From NCBI RefSeq assembly GCF_900106835.1, contig NZ_FNNR01000001.1, forward strand, positions 533,182 through 597,181: a DNA stretch of 64,000 nt, read 5' to 3'. Made by a program: the position numbers and the translations under genes. A model generated the notes under the pieces. The model was not told the DNA's origin. It searched no databases and saw nothing but the letters and a program-made list of their open reading frames with translations. This document shows, piece after piece, positions 21,390 through 27,601 of this stretch. Source of the stretch: Arthrobacter sp. cf158. Its GTDB lineage: Bacteria > Actinomycetota > Actinomycetes > Actinomycetales > Micrococcaceae. Each line of letters begins with the position of its first letter. The first letter of the stretch is position 1.

Positions 21390-22424
21390 TTACCGCAGCG
21401 AACGACGACGCCGGGCCGGCTCAGTCAGCCACACCGGCTCATACCCTGCGTCGGCGGCATTCAGAGTAGTTCCTGGCGGCACGATCTCATCGATCCTGTC
21501 CAGAACGTCACGGGACAAGGTGAGCTTGTCCGCCCCGAGCGCTGCCTCGAGGTGGTCCAGCGTGCGGGGACCGATGATCGCCGACGTCACTGCCGGGTGC
21601 TCCAGCACGAAGGCCAAAGCGAGGTGGATCAGTGACAGCCCCGCTTGCTCGGCCAGTTCTGTCAGCTCAAGCACGGCCTTCGTCTTGAGGGCGTTCTCGG
21701 GGAGGTTCGGATCATGCCGGGCGGGTTGGCGTCCTGCGCGGCTCGACGGAAGATGGCCACCGTCGGGCTTGATCCGGCCTGACAACCAGCCGCCGGCGAG
21801 GGGGCTCCACGGCAGGATCCCCAAGCCGTGCTGCTGCGCCAGCGGCAGCACTTCCCGTTCAGCGCCCCGGGCCAGGATGGAGTACGGCGGCTGTTCGGTG
21901 ACGGGTCGCTCGCGGTGGCGTTCGCGGGCCACGTACTGGGCTTCGACGATCTGGCCGGGCAGGAACGTGGACGTACCGATGTAGCGGATCTTGCCTTGGG
22001 TGACGAGGTCGCTCAGGGCTCCTAGCGTTTCGTCGATGTCCGTATCAGGCTCAGGCCGGTGGACTTGGTAGAGGTCGATCCAATCGGTCTGCAGCCGACG
22101 CAGGCTGTCCTCTACTTCGCGGATGATCCAGCGGCGGGAATTGCCGGCTTGGTTCACGTCGTCGCCGAGCCGCCCGTGGACTTTGGTGGCCAGGACAACC
22201 TGGTCGCGCCTGCCCTGCAGGGCCTTGCCGACGATTTCCTCCGACTCGCCCTGGGAGTATACGTCAGCCGTGTCCACCAGGTTGATGCCGGCGTCCAGGG
22301 CGCGGTGGATGATGCGGATGCTGTCGTCGTGGTCCGGATTCCCGATGGCCCCGAACATCATGGTGCCCAGTGTCAGCTGGCTGACCTTGACCCCTGTCCG
22401 TCCCAGATTGCGGTATTCGGTCAT
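21390..22424 (-). CDS. Aldo/keto reductase
   Basis: This 344-residue TIM-barrel NADPH oxidoreductase has the AKR tetrad in context: Asp and Tyr in LVDTADVYSQGESE, Lys in VLATKVHG and His in DLYQVHRPEP. The NADP-binding end reads SAIIGPRTLDHLEAAL. It is of the YajO/Tas-like class. The start codon shares one base with the stop of the upstream monooxygenase gene, so it is the last gene of the minus-strand organosulfur operon. A role in reducing an aldehyde released by monooxygenase cleavage is plausible, but inferred only from position. Confidence 0.9.
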   Translation of the reverse strand: MTEYRNLGRTGVKVSQLTLGTMMFGAIGNPDHDDSIRIIHRALDAGINLVDTADVYSQGESEEIVGKALQGRRDQVVLATKVHGRLGDDVNQAGNSRRWIIREVEDSLRRLQTDWIDLYQVHRPEPDTDIDETLGALSDLVTQGKIRYIGTSTFLPGQIVEAQYVARERHRERPVTEQPPYSILARGAEREVLPLAQQHGLGILPWSPLAGGWLSGRIKPDGGHLPSSRAGRQPARHDPNLPENALKTKAVLELTELAEQAGLSLIHLALAFVLEHPAVTSAIIGPRTLDHLEAALGADKLTLSRDVLDRIDEIVPPGTTLNAADAGYEPVWLTEPARRRRSLR

Positions 22425-23791
22425 TAGAACGCCGATCCGATGGAAGTCAGCTGCTGTGCCGTGGAACCGGAGAAGCGATTCTCCGGCCGGGCCAGCCCGT
22501 AGTGCCCACGCAGGGTGGAGGCGGTGTACTCGGTGCGGAACAGGCCGCGCTGCTGGAGGATGGGCACCACCTGGTCCACAAAGATCTCCAGGCCCGACGG
22601 GAGAACCGGCGGCATGATGTTGAAGCCATCGGCCGCTCCCGCAAAGAACCAGTCCTGGATGGCATCGGCAACCTGCTCCGGGGTTCCTGAGAAGGTGCGG
22701 TGGCCGCGTCCCCCGCCCAGACGGCCGATCAATTGACGCACAGTGAGCTGCTCGCGGCGGGCCAGTTCCACGATCAGCGTGTAGCGGCTCTTAGCTCCCT
22801 CAATCTCATCTTCTGAAGGCAGGTCAGGGGGAAGCTGACGGTCCAGGGGGAGGTCCTCGGGCTTCAGGCGCAGAGTCTTGGCGAGCTGTTCACGGGCGTA
22901 TTCCGGCTTGATCAGTTCGTCGAGTTCGCGCTCAAGCTTCAAGGCTTCGGCCTCCGTGGACCCGATCACCGGGACGATGCCCGGCAGGATCTTGATGCTT
23001 TCCGGATCGCGGCCCACGGCGGCGGTGCGGGCCTTCAGGTCTGAGTAGAAGGCTTGGGCATCGGCCAGGGTCTGGTGCGCGGTGAAAACGGCTTCGGCGT
23101 ACTGGGCTGCCAGCTTCTTGCCGTCTTCCGAGGACCCGGCCTGGACGATCAGCGGGTGGCCCTGTGGGGAGCGGGGGACATTGAGCGGGCCGCGGACCCG
23201 GAAGTGCTTGCCCTCGTGTTCAATGGCGCGGATCTTGTTGTCATCACCCCACACGCCTTCGGCCTTATCTGCCAGTACTGCATCGTCTTCCCAGCTGTCC
23301 CAGAGCTTCTGGGCCACCTCAATGAACTCAGCGGCGCGCTCATAGCGGACAGCGTGGGCGGGCTGGTCATCCACTCCGAAGTTGCGCGCGGCGTCCGGTC
23401 CCGCCGTGGTGACCACGTTCCAACCGGCGCGTCCGCCACTAACCCAGTCCACCGACGCGAAGCGGCGCGCCAGGTTGAAGGGATCGTTGTAAGTGGTTGA
23501 GGCGGTGGCGATCAAACCGATGTTCCGGGTAACGGCCGCGATGGCGGTCAGCAGCACCGTGGGCTCCAGCTTCCCGGCGGGACGGCGGCCTACTTCCCCG
23601 AACAGGACGGGGGAATCGGCGAAAAAGATGGAGTCGAGCTTGCCGCGCTCGGCTGTGCGGGCAAGGTGTTGGTAGTGCTCCACCTTGGTGGAGGACAGCG
23701 GATCGCTTTCCGGGAGCCGCCACGATGCTTCGTGGTGGCCTGTGCTCATGAGGAAGGCGTTGAGGTGCAGGTGGCGCTGGGGTTCAGACAT
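22424..23791 (-). CDS. LLM-class flavin-dependent monooxygenase (NtaA/SnaA/DszA type)
   Basis: This 455-residue protein belongs to the bacterial luciferase-like two-component monooxygenases that use FMNH2 from a separate reductase. The hallmarks are the N-terminus HLHLNAFLMSTGHHEASWR, the FFADSPV strand, SGGRAGWNVVTTAGPDAARNFG and a C-terminal GGADGFNIMPP-like stretch (AAADGFNIMPPVLP). The length fits NtaA/SnaA/SoxA/DszA rather than SsuD (about 380). An AAGGAG site precedes the ATG. It sits downstream of a sulfonate-type ABC importer, so a C-S or C-N cleaving role on a sulfur compound is likely. No flavin reductase is encoded in the operon. Confidence 0.9.
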   Translation of the reverse strand: MSEPQRHLHLNAFLMSTGHHEASWRLPESDPLSSTKVEHYQHLARTAERGKLDSIFFADSPVLFGEVGRRPAGKLEPTVLLTAIAAVTRNIGLIATASTTYNDPFNLARRFASVDWVSGGRAGWNVVTTAGPDAARNFGVDDQPAHAVRYERAAEFIEVAQKLWDSWEDDAVLADKAEGVWGDDNKIRAIEHEGKHFRVRGPLNVPRSPQGHPLIVQAGSSEDGKKLAAQYAEAVFTAHQTLADAQAFYSDLKARTAAVGRDPESIKILPGIVPVIGSTEAEALKLERELDELIKPEYAREQLAKTLRLKPEDLPLDRQLPPDLPSEDEIEGAKSRYTLIVELARREQLTVRQLIGRLGGGRGHRTFSGTPEQVADAIQDWFFAGAADGFNIMPPVLPSGLEIFVDQVVPILQQRGLFRTEYTASTLRGHYGLARPENRFSGSTAQQLTSIGSAF

Positions 23792-23851: not shown

Positions 23852-24574
23852 TCACGCAGCAGCGTGGACGCCGAGGGCGGCGAGCAGTTCACCCCTCAGC
23901 GAGGACTGGTCCACGGAGGTTCCTGCCGTGCGTTCCAAGGCGACGCGGCCGTCTTGGAGGACTATGACGCGGTCAGCCAGGGTGATGGCTTCGTCGACGT
24001 CGTGGGTCACCAGCAGGACCGCCGGACGATGCGCGGCCACGAGATCCTTCAGGAGGGCGTGCATTTTCAGGCGGGTCAGCGCATCGAGGGCACCGAAAGG
24101 TTCGTCGGCAAGGAGAAGCCGCGGCTCACGGACCAGCGACCTCGCGAGTGCCACGCGCTGCTGTTCGCCGCCGGACAGCTCGTGGGGCCACGCCTTTTCG
24201 CGGCCGGCGAGTCCCACCTCGGCGAGTGCGCGGCGGCCGCGGGCGTCGGCGTCGTGGTCCCGGAGGCCCAAGGTGACGTTGCCCAGCACGCTGTCCCAGG
24301 GCAGGAGGCGGGAGTCCTGGAATACCACCGAAACCTGCTCGGGAACCTTGACCACACCACTGCCGCGGACGTCACGGTCCAAGCCGGCCAGCGCGCGCAG
24401 GAGGGTGCTCTTGCCGCAGCCGCTCGGGCCAAGGAGTGCCACGAACTCACCCGGCGCGATATCGAGATCCACTCCGTTGAGGACGCCTTTGGGTCCAAAG
24501 CTCCGGATCAGGTTGCGGACGGAGACCTCGTTTGAGGGACCCGCCGACTTCAGCCCGCCAGTGTGCGTTGCCAT
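23852..24574 (-). CDS. ABC transporter ATP-binding protein, SsuB/TauB type
   Basis: This 240-residue ATPase has Walker A GPSGCGKST (about 49-57), Q-loop VFQDSRLLPW, signature LSGGEQQR, Walker B LLLADEPF and the H-loop THDVDEA. Q-loop plus RLLPW is typical of the nitrate/sulfonate/taurine subfamily. The gene overlaps the end of the permease gene by 25 bases and is followed 60 bp later by the monooxygenase. It energises import of the compound bound by the lipoprotein at 25497. Confidence 0.94.
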   Translation of the reverse strand: MATHTGGLKSAGPSNEVSVRNLIRSFGPKGVLNGVDLDIAPGEFVALLGPSGCGKSTLLRALAGLDRDVRGSGVVKVPEQVSVVFQDSRLLPWDSVLGNVTLGLRDHDADARGRRALAEVGLAGREKAWPHELSGGEQQRVALARSLVREPRLLLADEPFGALDALTRLKMHALLKDLVAAHRPAVLLVTHDVDEAITLADRVIVLQDGRVALERTAGTSVDQSSLRGELLAALGVHAAA

Positions 24575-25494
24575 GACAATGCCTTTCGTTCCAGGAGCCG
24601 GACGGCTGCGTCGGACAGCAAGCCAAGGACGCCGTAGACGGCCAGGCCCAGGACGATGATGTTGGTTTGGCCGTAGGTGCGGGCGAGCTCCATCATGTAG
24701 CCGATGCCGCTGGTGGAGTTGATCTGTTCCACCACCACCAAGGACACCCAGGCGCCGGTGACGGCGAAGCGGAGTCCCAGGAAGAACCCAGGCAGCGCCC
24801 CCGGCAGCACAACCCGGCGGATGAACCCGGCCCGGCTCAAGCCCACAGTCTGTGCCAACTCCACGTAGCGCAGGTCAATGCCGCGGAGTCCGGCGTGGGT
24901 CTGGAGGTAGATGGGGACAAACACGCCCAGCGTGATGGTGAGGACTTTCATGGTTTCGTCGATGCCGAACCACAGGATCAGCAACGGGATCAGGGCCAGC
25001 CCTGGGATGGCGCGCTTGATCTGCACAGGACCGTCGATCAGCGACTCACCCACCCTGCTCAGTCCGGACAGGACAGCCAGGACGGCGCCCACCACAATCC
25101 CGAAGAACAGGCCAAGGCCCGCCCGTTGGGCCGAGATGGCCAGGTTCTCCTGAAGCCGGCCGTCGGCGATTAGCTCGCCTGCCGTGGCCACCACGGTCCA
25201 CGGCTCAGAGAGGATGCGGGGGTCCAGAAGTCCGGTCGCCGAGGCGACAACCCACAAAAGGATCAGCGCGGCCGGACCCACCAGGCCGGCAAAGCGGCGG
25301 CGTTGGCCGGGGCCCAGGCGGCGGCTGGTGGGGCGGACGTCCGGCCGTCCCGTCAGGGCGGGGTCAAGATGAGGCTCGACGGCGGCACCCGGGTGCGTGC
25401 CGGCGTCGCCCTTGGTGGAGTCGCCGTTGGTGGAGTCGCCCTGATACGGGGGAGCGGTGACCGTCGTCGCGCGCCGGGCAGCAGTGGTGGTCAT
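24550..25494 (-). CDS. ABC transporter permease, SsuC/TauC type
   Basis: The start at 25494 gives MTTTAARRAT..., with a purine-rich AGGGAAG site upstream; longer readings run back through the lipoprotein gene. The 314-residue product has a roughly 60-residue N-terminal extension rich in Thr/Gly/Asp with a repeated GDST-N/K-GD unit, then six membrane segments. The EAA-type loop reads ELAQTVGLSRAGFIRRVVLPGALPGFFLGLRFA. The sequence fits permeases of sulfonate/nitrate/taurine importers. It starts 2 bases after the lipoprotein stop. Confidence 0.92.
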   Translation of the reverse strand: MTTTAARRATTVTAPPYQGDSTNGDSTKGDAGTHPGAAVEPHLDPALTGRPDVRPTSRRLGPGQRRRFAGLVGPAALILLWVVASATGLLDPRILSEPWTVVATAGELIADGRLQENLAISAQRAGLGLFFGIVVGAVLAVLSGLSRVGESLIDGPVQIKRAIPGLALIPLLILWFGIDETMKVLTITLGVFVPIYLQTHAGLRGIDLRYVELAQTVGLSRAGFIRRVVLPGALPGFFLGLRFAVTGAWVSLVVVEQINSTSGIGYMMELARTYGQTNIIVLGLAVYGVLGLLSDAAVRLLERKALSWQRTLAG

Positions 25495-25496
25495 GG

Positions 25497-26618
25497 CTAC
25501 GCTCCCTTCCCTGAGCCTGAAGCAGCGGCTGCGTACGCCGTGCCGCCGATGGCCTCGAACCTGAGGTCGTACAGCTTGGCGGCGTCCAGCTTGGGCTTCT
25601 TCTGCTCGCGGGCCAGGAGATCGATGGTCTGCTGGTGCCGGGCGATGGCTTCGGTCCACGAGGTAGGGAGGTCGCGCTCGCCGGCGGCGTCGATCAGGTA
25701 CTGGCCGTCTTCAGCGGAAAGCCCTTGGTTCTTGACGTAGTAGCCCTCAAGCCATTCCTTGGGGTGGTCCTGGATCCACCGCTGGGCTTGACCCCAGACG
25801 TCCACGTACTGGGCCAGGGCCGCAGCCTTGGCCGGATCATCCAGCACTTTGGCGGGGGAGTAGAGGTGGCCGGGATCGTCCCGGAGACCATGCCGCAGCG
25901 TGGTTCCACCGTCGGCGCCGTATTTGGCCAGGTAACGCTTGATCTGGACGCCGCCCAGCGGAGCGGCATCAACCTGCTTGCTGGACAGGGCTGTTGAGTA
26001 GGTGTCCCCGGTGCTGGGCAGTTCCACGAGCTTCACGTCGCTTTGCTGGAGGCCGGCCTTTTCGAGGATGCGCAACACCAGCGCACCTTGCGCCTGGCCC
26101 GGGCTGTACGCGATCTTCTTGCCGCGCAGGCCTTGTAGGTCCGCGATGCCCGCGCCGGGCGCTACGCCCAGTTCGTACAACGGGTGGTTCACCGCGTCCT
26201 GGCGGTAGACGCTGGCGATGATGCGGACATCCAGCCCCGTCCACGTGGCGTGAATGGGCGGAATGTCGGCCACGGAGCCGACGTCCAGGGCGTTGGCCCT
26301 AAAGGCTTCCGTGGTGGCCGGGCCGCCGGAAATGTTGGCGAACTTGACCGGGAAGCTGAGCTTCTTGTCCAGCCCGGACAGCTCCAGGGCAACCTGGACG
26401 GCGGGATCGCCCACCACCAGAGTGGTGCCCTCAGGGACAGTGGTGGCCAACGGAGCCGTCACTTGCGCTGCCTGGGTGGCGTCACCGCCTGCGGTGGCCG
26501 CTCCGCCGCAGGCTGTCAGCAGGCCGAGGGCAGGAATCGCGAGCAGGGCGCCGAGGACATGGCGGCGGTTTGGTGTTGTTGTGGGGAGTTTTTGGGCGCG
26601 GGGGAACGCGGATGACAT
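25497..26618 (-). CDS. ABC transporter substrate-binding lipoprotein, aliphatic sulfonate type
   Basis: This 373-residue protein has an RR-containing signal (NRRHVLGALLAIPALGLLTAC) that ends in a lipobox at Cys37. The mature part follows the SsuA/NMT1-like periplasmic-binding fold, with a DVGSVADIPPIHA stretch and a GKKIAYSPGQAQG segment as in sulfonate/taurine binders. GAAAGG lies 6 bases before the ATG. It is the first structural gene of the operon and follows a Cys-rich leader peptide, which supports a sulfur-assimilation role. The exact ligand cannot be told. Confidence 0.9.
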   Translation of the reverse strand: MSSAFPRAQKLPTTTPNRRHVLGALLAIPALGLLTACGGAATAGGDATQAAQVTAPLATTVPEGTTLVVGDPAVQVALELSGLDKKLSFPVKFANISGGPATTEAFRANALDVGSVADIPPIHATWTGLDVRIIASVYRQDAVNHPLYELGVAPGAGIADLQGLRGKKIAYSPGQAQGALVLRILEKAGLQQSDVKLVELPSTGDTYSTALSSKQVDAAPLGGVQIKRYLAKYGADGGTTLRHGLRDDPGHLYSPAKVLDDPAKAAALAQYVDVWGQAQRWIQDHPKEWLEGYYVKNQGLSAEDGQYLIDAAGERDLPTSWTEAIARHQQTIDLLAREQKKPKLDAAKLYDLRFEAIGGTAYAAAASGSGKGA

Positions 26619-26766
26619 GTCAAGCCTTTCAGGTGCGGGAGGGGCGCTGCCGGTCCGGAGCCAGGGGCGTCGACGGGGCAGCGGTGCAGATCGCTCAGTT
26701 CTGAAGGCAGGGCGGACAGCAGGGGTGAGCCTGCGTTGCGCGTGCAGAAAGACCGGACGTAAGCAT
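26618..26766 (-). promoter_or_regulatory. Candidate cysteine-responsive attenuation region before the sulfonate operon
   Basis: Two alternative pairings are visible on the minus strand. GCCTTCAG at the last Cys codon can pair with CTGAAAGGC at the lipoprotein Shine-Dalgarno (one bulged A). Separately, CGCTGCC and GGCAGCG form a 7-bp stem in the leader-to-lipoprotein spacer. The mechanism is inferred and no structure was computed. Confidence 0.5.
26695..26766 (-). CDS. Cys-rich 23-residue leader peptide (putative cysteine attenuator)
   Basis: Reading the minus strand from ATG at 26766 gives a 23-codon frame ending in HPCCPPCLQN and TGA (26697-26695). A perfect AGGAGG lies 4 bases upstream (complement of 26771-26776), stronger than that of the next gene. 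Three Cys codons cluster near the stop (C16, C17, C20). The frame ends 76 bases before the lipoprotein start. The segment over and after the last Cys codon (complement of 26701-26708) is complementary, with one bulge, to the lipoprotein ribosome site (complement of 26624-26632). Ribosome stalling for lack of Cys-tRNA would free that site. Family precedent: Cys-rich leaders occur before actinobacterial sulfur genes. Confidence 0.75.
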   Translation of the reverse strand: MLTSGLSARATQAHPCCPPCLQN

Positions 26767-27088
26767 CGTTCCTCCTGTTCTGTGTGAAGTGAATTCTCAA
26801 AGGTGTGATGGCATCAGTGATTCGCCGTGTGGCAACTCAAGCATGCCCGCAACGCCCGGCGCCAGCGTTTCGACATGTCCCCGCAACAGCACGAAACCGG
26901 CGTTCACGGCACGCCACAGGACTCAATCCGGCGCCATGGGAGGCAACACAAAAGCAGTCCGGCGGTTGTCCACCTGATCAACACAGTGCCTGTGACCGGC
27001 GTCGTGCGGTCAGTTCGTGACTGATAGTTCCGTCACGGAAAGGCGTATTTGGCATTTACCGTGCGTGCGGCGCGACTACCATTGGTAG
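26767..27088. other. Divergent intergenic control region between the sulfonate operon and the GNAT gene
   Basis: This 322-bp gap carries the leader-peptide ribosome site at its left end. It also has an inverted repeat TGACCG-N8-CGGTCA (26993-27012) and an overlapping TCAGT-N5-ACTGA (27010-27024), both possible operators. No convincing further gene is seen. The sulfonate promoter must lie here on the minus strand, but no clear -35/-10 pair was found. Confidence 0.45.
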
Positions 27089-27091
27089 GTG
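27077..27091 (+). promoter_or_regulatory. TANNNT -10 box for a leaderless GNAT transcript
   Basis: TACCAT (27077-27082) lies 6 bases before the GTG at 27089, the spacing expected when transcription starts on the start codon. No Shine-Dalgarno precedes the GTG, and an in-frame TAG at 27086 excludes any earlier start. A weak -35 (TTTACC, 27055-27060) is 16 bases upstream. Confidence 0.5.
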
Positions 27092-27601
27092 CTTTCGCCG
27101 ATTACCGTCCGTCCCGCCCTGCCCGAAGACTACGACGCCGTTGCCCGCATTACGCAGGACTCCTACGTCACCGCGGGGTACTACGGCGACGCCGATCATC
27201 CCTACCTGCAGAAGCTCCAGGACGTGGCGGGCCGCGCTGAGCACGCGGAGATCCTGGTGGCAGAGCGCAACGGTGAGGTCATCGGATCCGTGACGGCTGC
27301 TCCGGCGGGCGGCGGATTCTCGGACATCGGACTTGAGGATGAATTGGAACTGCGTACCCTTGTGGTGGATCCGGCAGTCCAGCGTTCCGGTGCCGGCCGG
27401 GCCTTGGTGCAGGCCGTCGTCGATCAGGCGAAGGCCATGGACGGGATCAACGCCGTATCCCTGACCACGGGCGCCACGTGGGAAAGTGCCAACGCCCTCT
27501 ACGCCCGCACCGGCTTTGACCGGGCCCCCCACCGTGACTGGTTTGTTCCCGGCACCGACATAAAGCTGTTCGTTTACCGGCTGGACCTGCCGCAGTCATA
27601 A
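27089..27601 (+). CDS. GNAT family N-acetyltransferase
   Basis: This 170-residue protein has the GNAT fold: beta strand IGSVTAAP, then motif A around ELRTLVVDPAVQRSGAGRAL, where the R/Q-x-x-G-x-G/A loop binds the acetyl-CoA pyrophosphate, and a C-terminal NALYARTGFDRAPHRDWF typical of small-molecule or amino-acid acetyltransferases. It starts with GTG and probably has a leaderless mRNA. It is followed 56 bp later by a RidA gene on the same strand. The acetyl acceptor cannot be told. Confidence 0.88.
   Translation: MLSPITVRPALPEDYDAVARITQDSYVTAGYYGDADHPYLQKLQDVAGRAEHAEILVAERNGEVIGSVTAAPAGGGFSDIGLEDELELRTLVVDPAVQRSGAGRALVQAVVDQAKAMDGINAVSLTTGATWESANALYARTGFDRAPHRDWFVPGTDIKLFVYRLDLPQS

Follow-up and report, generated by a model that had tools for sequence, protein, structure and literature searches.

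A short Cys-rich leader ORF precedes a sulfonate-type operon in the window (the whole 64-kb stretch of DNA that was analysed), and our preferred reading, to which we give a probability of about 0.55, is that the first operon gene is translated more when uncharged tRNA-Cys stalls ribosomes on the Cys codons of this leader. For the lineage of the window, translational attenuation is preferred because no terminator was found by scan and because both arms of a pairing between the leader's end and the next ribosome site are invariant.

The operon and its leader ORF

The apparent operon lies on the minus strand and, to judge from the family matches listed here, is likely to serve in the uptake and cleavage of organic sulfur.

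25497..26618, minus strand: SsuA-like substrate-binding protein gene, 373 aa, first in the apparent operon (TIGR01728, 4.2e-27, below the curated cut-off)
24550..25494, minus strand: SsuC-like ABC permease gene (PRK11365, 7.2e-64, below cut-off)
23852..24574, minus strand: SsuB-like ABC ATPase gene (PRK11247, 9.6e-68, below cut-off)
22424..23791, minus strand: NtaA/DmoA-family FMN-dependent monooxygenase gene (TIGR03860, 1.7e-170, above cut-off)
21390..22424, minus strand: aldo-keto reductase-like gene, last in the apparent operon (TIGR01293 as best match, 6.3e-45, below cut-off)

The start codon of the SsuC-like gene at 25494 was chosen from the translation, and the family scan of this gene was run without the first codon. 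From its spacing and strand, the aldo-keto reductase-like gene probably belongs to the operon.

Upstream of the SsuA-like gene the first-pass annotation had described an AGGAGG-led ORF of 23 codons (26766-26695, minus strand) that ends in HPCCPPCLQN, and direct reading of the sequence found it as described. On the minus strand AGGAGG at 26776-26771 is followed by the spacer aacg and by ATG at 26766, and the stop codon is TGA at 26697-26695. The features of the leader are given below, where the close lineage means six loci: L001 (the window), L002, L003, L031, L035 and L036.

26771..26776, minus strand: Shine-Dalgarno (SD) sequence of the leader ORF, AGGAGG (read from the sequence)
26695..26766, minus strand: leader ORF, 23 codons, MLTSGLSARATQAHPCCPPCLQN plus stop (sequence; frame and Cys cluster conserved, gaps in multiples of three)
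26716..26721, minus strand: predicted stall site, the two adjacent Cys codons 16 and 17, TGC TGT (invariant in 6/6 of the close lineage)
26707..26709, minus strand: third Cys codon, Cys20, TGC (5/6 of the close lineage; Arg, CGC, in L035)

Three Cys in 23 codons have a probability of 3.5e-4 on a generous background of 0.6% Cys; among the 3718 codons of 11 local genes, 7 are Cys codons. The whole 64 kb was scanned on both strands for ORFs of at most 45 codons led by an SD-like sequence and carrying CC or at least three Cys. Three ORFs passed, of which the leader was the sole ATG-led one, the other two being TTG-led. The leader peptide had no match in an NCBIfam scan, and a search of 26400-27100 against Rfam, with E values up to 1 allowed, gave none either. 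A search for other leaders in the same genome covered seven stretches (129.5 kb) around other sulfur-type genes and returned 12 rows for ORFs led by an SD-like sequence and 11 for ORFs denser in Cys; none of the ORFs scanned there had ATG and GGAGG like the leader in the window. Two Cys ORFs from these stretches lay opposite long ORFs and were rejected.

Farther upstream is a conserved block that may mark the promoter.

26824..26842, minus strand: block GCTTGAGTTGCCACACGGC, putative promoter -10 region and transcription start area (conservation)

This block is near-invariant in the six close-lineage sequences, and its first part can be aligned to the 14 other leader loci included in the alignment; a consensus scan found no sigma-70-like site. 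Blocks conserved across relatives, with the putative promoter, occupy 26824-26990 of the window, a region that may bind a regulator. Between the leader and the divergent GNAT gene (27089), CCGTGACGGAACTATCAGTCACG (minus strand, 27016-27038) holds the inverted repeat CGTGAC/GTCACG; this 27016-27038 stretch is partly present in L051 and may belong with the GNAT gene.

Conservation of the leader across the genus

An ortholog of the first operon gene was found in 39 of 206 genus genomes (E <= 1e-60). The 450 bases upstream of the gene were scanned for leaders at these 39 loci and at L034, a locus from another genus. An SD-led, Cys-rich short ORF was present at 25 of the 39 orthologous loci, with GGAGG ahead of the start codon in every case (25/25) and a CC pair in 23; L012 and L023 have spaced Cys in place of CC. 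Examples are MPKTVSNAHATQAHSCCPSCLQN, MPNTSRRPQGTHTFGPPCCHRRMCSPEQ and MPDISSRADSAATWGPCCCSFRMIPSRRMAAHRR. Of the 765 residues in the 25 leaders, 24 of which are distinct, 76 are Cys, compared with 7 in 3718 for the 11 local genes. The type of stop codon varies (TGA, TAA, TAG) and the frame is kept. Gaps were counted in pairwise alignments within four subgroups that cover 20 of the 25 leaders (all but L006, L023, L038, L039 and L040). Inside the frame 22 of 27 gaps were multiples of three, and in the spacer 6 of 76 were, counts that are not independent because they were made pair by pair.

Fourteen loci were counted as lacking a Cys-rich leader (L005, L015, L019-L022, L024-L028, L033, L051 and L056), and at 13 of the 39, the same set minus L019, no such leader was found within 450 bases. 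L019, counted as leader-negative, has an SD-led ORF some 545 bases upstream of the gene; by our own reading it has a single Cys in frame, and the usual TGTTGC Cys pair lies out of frame. The 450 bases upstream at L034 held no Cys-rich ORF. On a gene tree of 38 genus proteins and L034 (all genus loci but L056), leader presence clusters by lineage, with 5 changes against a shuffled mean of 11.7 (0 of 500 shuffles as low). The Cys cluster occurs in several lineages of this tree, and the leader is missing from one clade of 10.

These comparisons are strong evidence for what would be a translated leader with a selected Cys cluster. Since frame and Cys cluster are conserved at 25 of the 39 loci, the first-pass annotation came through the test that it had set itself, namely the absence of either in relatives. 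The contrary view, that the short ORF is untranslated or non-regulatory and owes its conservation to a constraint on the DNA or the promoter, we think very improbable. It could draw on the 13 loci where no leader was found and on the conserved blocks that also lie upstream of the ORF, but the frame-keeping gaps (22/27 against 6/76 in the spacer), the GGAGG of 25/25 leaders, the turnover of stop codons and the spread of the Cys cluster over several lineages all argue against it.

Pairing between the leader's end and the next Shine-Dalgarno sequence

The last codons of the leader are complementary to the ribosome site of the SsuA-like gene, and a consensus fold of the six close-lineage sequences (RNAalifold) contains this pairing, a spacer stem between its arms and a hairpin over the first Cys codon.

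26701..26708, minus strand: anti-SD segment GCCTTCAG (forms 8 pairs with the following gene's SD region; invariant in 6/6)
26624..26632, minus strand: SD region of the first operon gene, CTGAAAGGC, partner of the anti-SD (sequence and consensus fold)
26719..26734, minus strand: hairpin P1 over the first Cys codon, arms 26734-26730 and 26723-26719 (consensus fold, six sequences)
26645..26683, minus strand: spacer stem, arms 26683-26678 and about 26651-26645 (consensus fold)

The complementarity, with one bulge, that had been proposed between the leader's end (26708-26701) and the next gene's ribosome site (26632-26624) is indeed there, and it is retained in 6/6 sequences of the close lineage. 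GCCTTCAG forms 8 pairs with CTGAAAGGC, with one bulged A, and covers the last two bases of Cys20 and then Leu21 and Gln22. From the first Cys codon through CAGAA the six sequences hardly differ, in contrast to the freely varying first half of the ORF; the letters of anti-SD and SD are both invariant (6/6). In L035, the only one of the six to have lost Cys20 (to Arg, CGC), the anti-SD letters are untouched. Leu21 is CTT in all six, a locally uncommon codon (40 of 444 Leu codons in the 11 local genes). In each of the six the anti-SD segment is the best partner of the SD in the leader region.

Letter shuffles of the window paired with the SD as well or better in 27/100 cases for the whole leader region and in 5/100 for the stretch near the Cys codons, so that in the window's sequence alone the pairing exceeds chance modestly. 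The eight anti-SD:SD pairs never vary, and they therefore provide no covariation support. P1 has 5 pairs, one of them broken in 1/6 sequences. The spacer stem, which is predicted to bring anti-SD and SD together, has one U-A pair replaced by C-G in 2/6 (the sister sequences L031 and L036), and several of its other pairs are broken in 1 or 2 of the 6, which makes the covariation term of the consensus fold unfavourable (+1.25). The 125-nt fold is unremarkable (z -1.30; 22/200 shuffles as good).

Folding models of the stalled ribosome

In the mechanism that we favour, the leader ORF would be translated. With no ribosome on GCCTTCAG, folding predicts that this segment pairs with CTGAAAGGC, with the spacer stem between them, and that the SD is hidden. 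A shortage of cysteine would stall ribosomes at the leader's Cys codons, charged tRNA-Cys lacking. According to the folding, a ribosome at Cys17 or Cys20 would cover GCCTTCAG and leave the SD more open, and one at the first Cys (Cys16) would leave the anti-SD uncovered. The read-out would be translation and not transcription.

Stalls were modelled with a ribosome footprint extending about 15 bases from the P site in each direction, and the cost of opening GAAAGG was computed. In the downstream-only model the RNA beyond the ribosome folds, and the reference is the RNA from the first Cys codon on. The cost for the window (L001) was 7.4 kcal/mol in the reference, 3.6 with a stall at Cys17 and 2.1 with a stall at Cys20. 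The corresponding costs (kcal/mol; reference, second Cys, third Cys) were 4.9, 2.8 and 1.4 for L003, 6.2, 2.3 and 2.3 for L031, 6.8, 2.7 and 2.2 for L036, and 4.6, 4.6 and 3.8 for L002; for L035, which has no third Cys, the reference was 6.5 and the second-Cys stall 4.0. Thus a stall at the second Cys lowers the cost by at least 2.1 in 5/6, and L002 has no change at the second Cys and a fall of 0.8 at the third. If the whole leader is taken as reference, a second-Cys stall brings smaller drops (5.9 to 3.6 in L001, 4.0 to 2.3 in L031), and again L002 has none (4.0 to 4.6). With the ribosome at the first Cys, opening becomes costlier in 5/6 and cheaper in L031; in the window the Cys16 stall costs 8.1, and the SD is not freed. 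A ribosome at the leader's stop codon also covers the anti-SD in the model (cost 2.7), and repression would therefore need fast release.

Shuffle controls were run for three of the six, L001, L003 and L036. Synonymous leaders reached the third-Cys drop in 0/150, 27/150 and 2/150 cases, respectively, and the second-Cys drop in 2/150, 34/150 and 2/150. Spacer shuffles reached the third-Cys drop in 11/150, 23/150 and 10/150 and the second-Cys drop in 22/150, 48/150 and 2/150. Wiring of the stall to the SD is favoured, not proven, by these models in two of the three sequences.

When the RNA 5' of the ribosome was also allowed to pair (the whole-RNA model), the SD cost fell in L002, L003, L035 and L036 (4/6) and not in L001 or L031. 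The window's costs were 6.6 free and 7.1 and 7.0 stalled, and those of L031 were 5.8 free and 8.8 and 5.8 stalled. In the best single fold of the window a 5' segment, GGTCTTTC, is paired with the SD. The claim of the first-pass annotation that ribosomes stalled on the Cys codons keep the site from being masked is thus upheld in part. It agrees with the downstream-only model for Cys17 and Cys20 (7.4 to 3.6 and 2.1 in the window) and fails for Cys16 (8.1); as a general statement it is weakened by the whole-RNA model, which loses the drop in 2/6 including the window, and by most leaders of other lineages, which are uncoupled.

The behaviour of the window in the whole-RNA model, without simple SD release, could also mean that the leader is a translated cysteine sensor that works by another route, such as mRNA stability conferred by a parked ribosome, or an RNA kept open by queueing. 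Conservation of the leader even where SD coupling is absent would fit such a route, but no specific feature speaks for it, and we consider it distinctly unlikely.

Other lineages and the case for transcription

Outside the close lineage a Cys stall shifted SD access by at most about 0.6 in all 17 leaders modelled; these were 17 of the 19, L038 and L040 having been treated only in the whole-RNA model. In L008, L010 and L012 the SD has its best partner immediately ahead of the Cys codons; in L013, L014, L017 and L018, among others, that partner is far downstream. SD coupling was therefore rejected as a reading for the other lineages, and no common rule is claimed. Seven leaders (L013:1307-1470 and six relatives) share a long hairpin, rich in GC, that lies between leader and gene and in which one pair occurs as G-U, G-C and A-U; seven further leaders gave only a weak consensus fold.

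Intrinsic terminators were not found by scan in the stretches of L008 and L013, nor by consensus scan on the minus strand of the window at 26400-27100. The longest T run in the window's spacer between leader and gene is 1, and the terminator hairpin with a U run that marks a classical transcription attenuator is absent from it. The main rival is instead Rho-type termination: the leader would sense cysteine and act on transcription, its C-rich untranslated spacer recruiting Rho unless this is prevented by a stalled ribosome or by the change in RNA structure that such a ribosome causes, and the SD pairing would be incidental. In favour of this, the spacers are C-rich and G-poor (C 0.52 and G 0.27 in the window; C/G above 1.2 in 24/24 leaders computed, all but L038). 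Such termination was suggested for Cys leaders before mycobacterial cys operons, in the available text of PMC1262725, and would suit both the absence of Cys-coupled SD access from most other-lineage leaders and the one lineage with a conserved GC-rich hairpin between leader and gene. But C-rich spacers are weak evidence, the accessible part of PMC1262725 calls its own Rho prediction weak, and in the close lineage anti-SD and SD are invariant and fold together. On balance we find this rival doubtful, and translational attenuation remains our preferred reading for the lineage of the window.

The same gene is preceded by other elements elsewhere. In the clade without a leader (L015, L020-L022, L024-L028, L033 and L056), most loci have CCCGGG-type repeats before the SD, within the last 120 bases upstream of the gene. 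They possibly form alternative stems just before the SD, another kind of switch. A family search matched 17 of 395 genomes, 16 within the genus and one outside (L034), and in the latter a SAM riboswitch (RF00162, E 1.3e-8) lies directly before the ortholog (L034:1329-1443). With leaders, other elements and this riboswitch before the same gene, various devices appear to link it to sulfur status.

A broader interpretation, which we offer tentatively and think somewhat short of probable, is that the genus has retained the cysteine sensor but has swapped the RNA read-out attached to it: SD masking by the Cys-Leu-Gln codons in Paenarthrobacter-like loci, a GC hairpin or Rho-type spacer in Pseudarthrobacter-like loci, and, in a third clade, no leader any more. 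If so, sensor and actuator of an attenuator would evolve as separate modules.

Comparison with known systems

In the ermC-type, drug-induced translational attenuators, a ribosome stalled in the leader unmasks the next SD. There the signal is an antibiotic, whereas for the leader in the window it would be uncharged tRNA-Cys. For the leaderless polycysteine short ORFs of mycobacteria, Canestrari et al. (2020, Mol Microbiol 114:93) reportedly described stalled ribosomes that block structures hiding the next ribosome site.

A short ORF with clustered Cys codons before sulfur or cysteine genes is a mark of polycysteine-uORF attenuators, and the leader in the window has this arrangement, its downstream genes being of sulfur type by family match, three of them at scores below the curated cut-offs. 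Among the mycobacterial polycysteine leaders, cysteine-responsive attenuation acts on translation, according to the available text of PMC9031893 and PMC13236596. Both they and the leader in the window are short ORFs with a Cys run before cysteine genes. The mycobacterial ORFs are leaderless, whereas the one in the window has AGGAGG and a putative 5' UTR; it thus falls outside the narrow leaderless class, in which the ORF begins at the first base of the transcript without an SD. The bacterial family also differs, and the operon in the window is one of sulfonate-type uptake with an oxygenase.

Candidate Cys leader ORFs were described in 2005 for cys operons in Mycobacterium and in P. acnes and for cbs in B. 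longum, with Cys runs near the stop codon as in the window (PMC1262725, available portions). In that text those leaders have no conserved terminator hairpin and Rho was suggested, whereas in the lineage of the window the last codons can pair with the next SD. The same source, as far as its accessible text goes, describes the LEU element of actinobacterial leuA, in which the leader's run of Leu codons pairs with the SD of the next gene. Its layout is similar to the pairing of leader codons with the SD in the window, but the LEU element involves leucine and a pseudoknot, and the likeness is one of layout alone. In uORFC-8-2, before cysS of Rhodobacterales, two tandem Cys codons usually stand at 14 and 15 (PMC8632094, available portions). 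This is again a short ORF with tandem Cys codons inside a first stem, as in the window; uORFC-8-2 ends, in that text, in an intrinsic terminator, whereas the scan of the window found none between leader and gene.

Among the papers listed in a literature search that covered few subscription papers, no title or abstract dealt with Cys leaders of Arthrobacter or with one ahead of a sulfonate operon. In sum, the mechanism proposed by the first-pass annotation is of a kind known from the mycobacterial polycysteine leaders (as the available parts of PMC9031893 and PMC13236596 describe them) and is not new, and its SD release is supported in part. What is new lies in the SD-led leader, in the sulfonate-type operon in Micrococcaceae and in signs that sister lineages retain the sensor with a different read-out. 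If the reading is true, ribosome-read cysteine sensing, known from leaderless ORFs of mycobacteria, would extend to Micrococcaceae and to a leader with an ordinary SD, and organic sulfur scavenging would be tied directly to the charge of tRNA-Cys. The six loci of the window's lineage and the 19 other leaders would then form a comparative set for the divergence of sensor and read-out in attenuator evolution.
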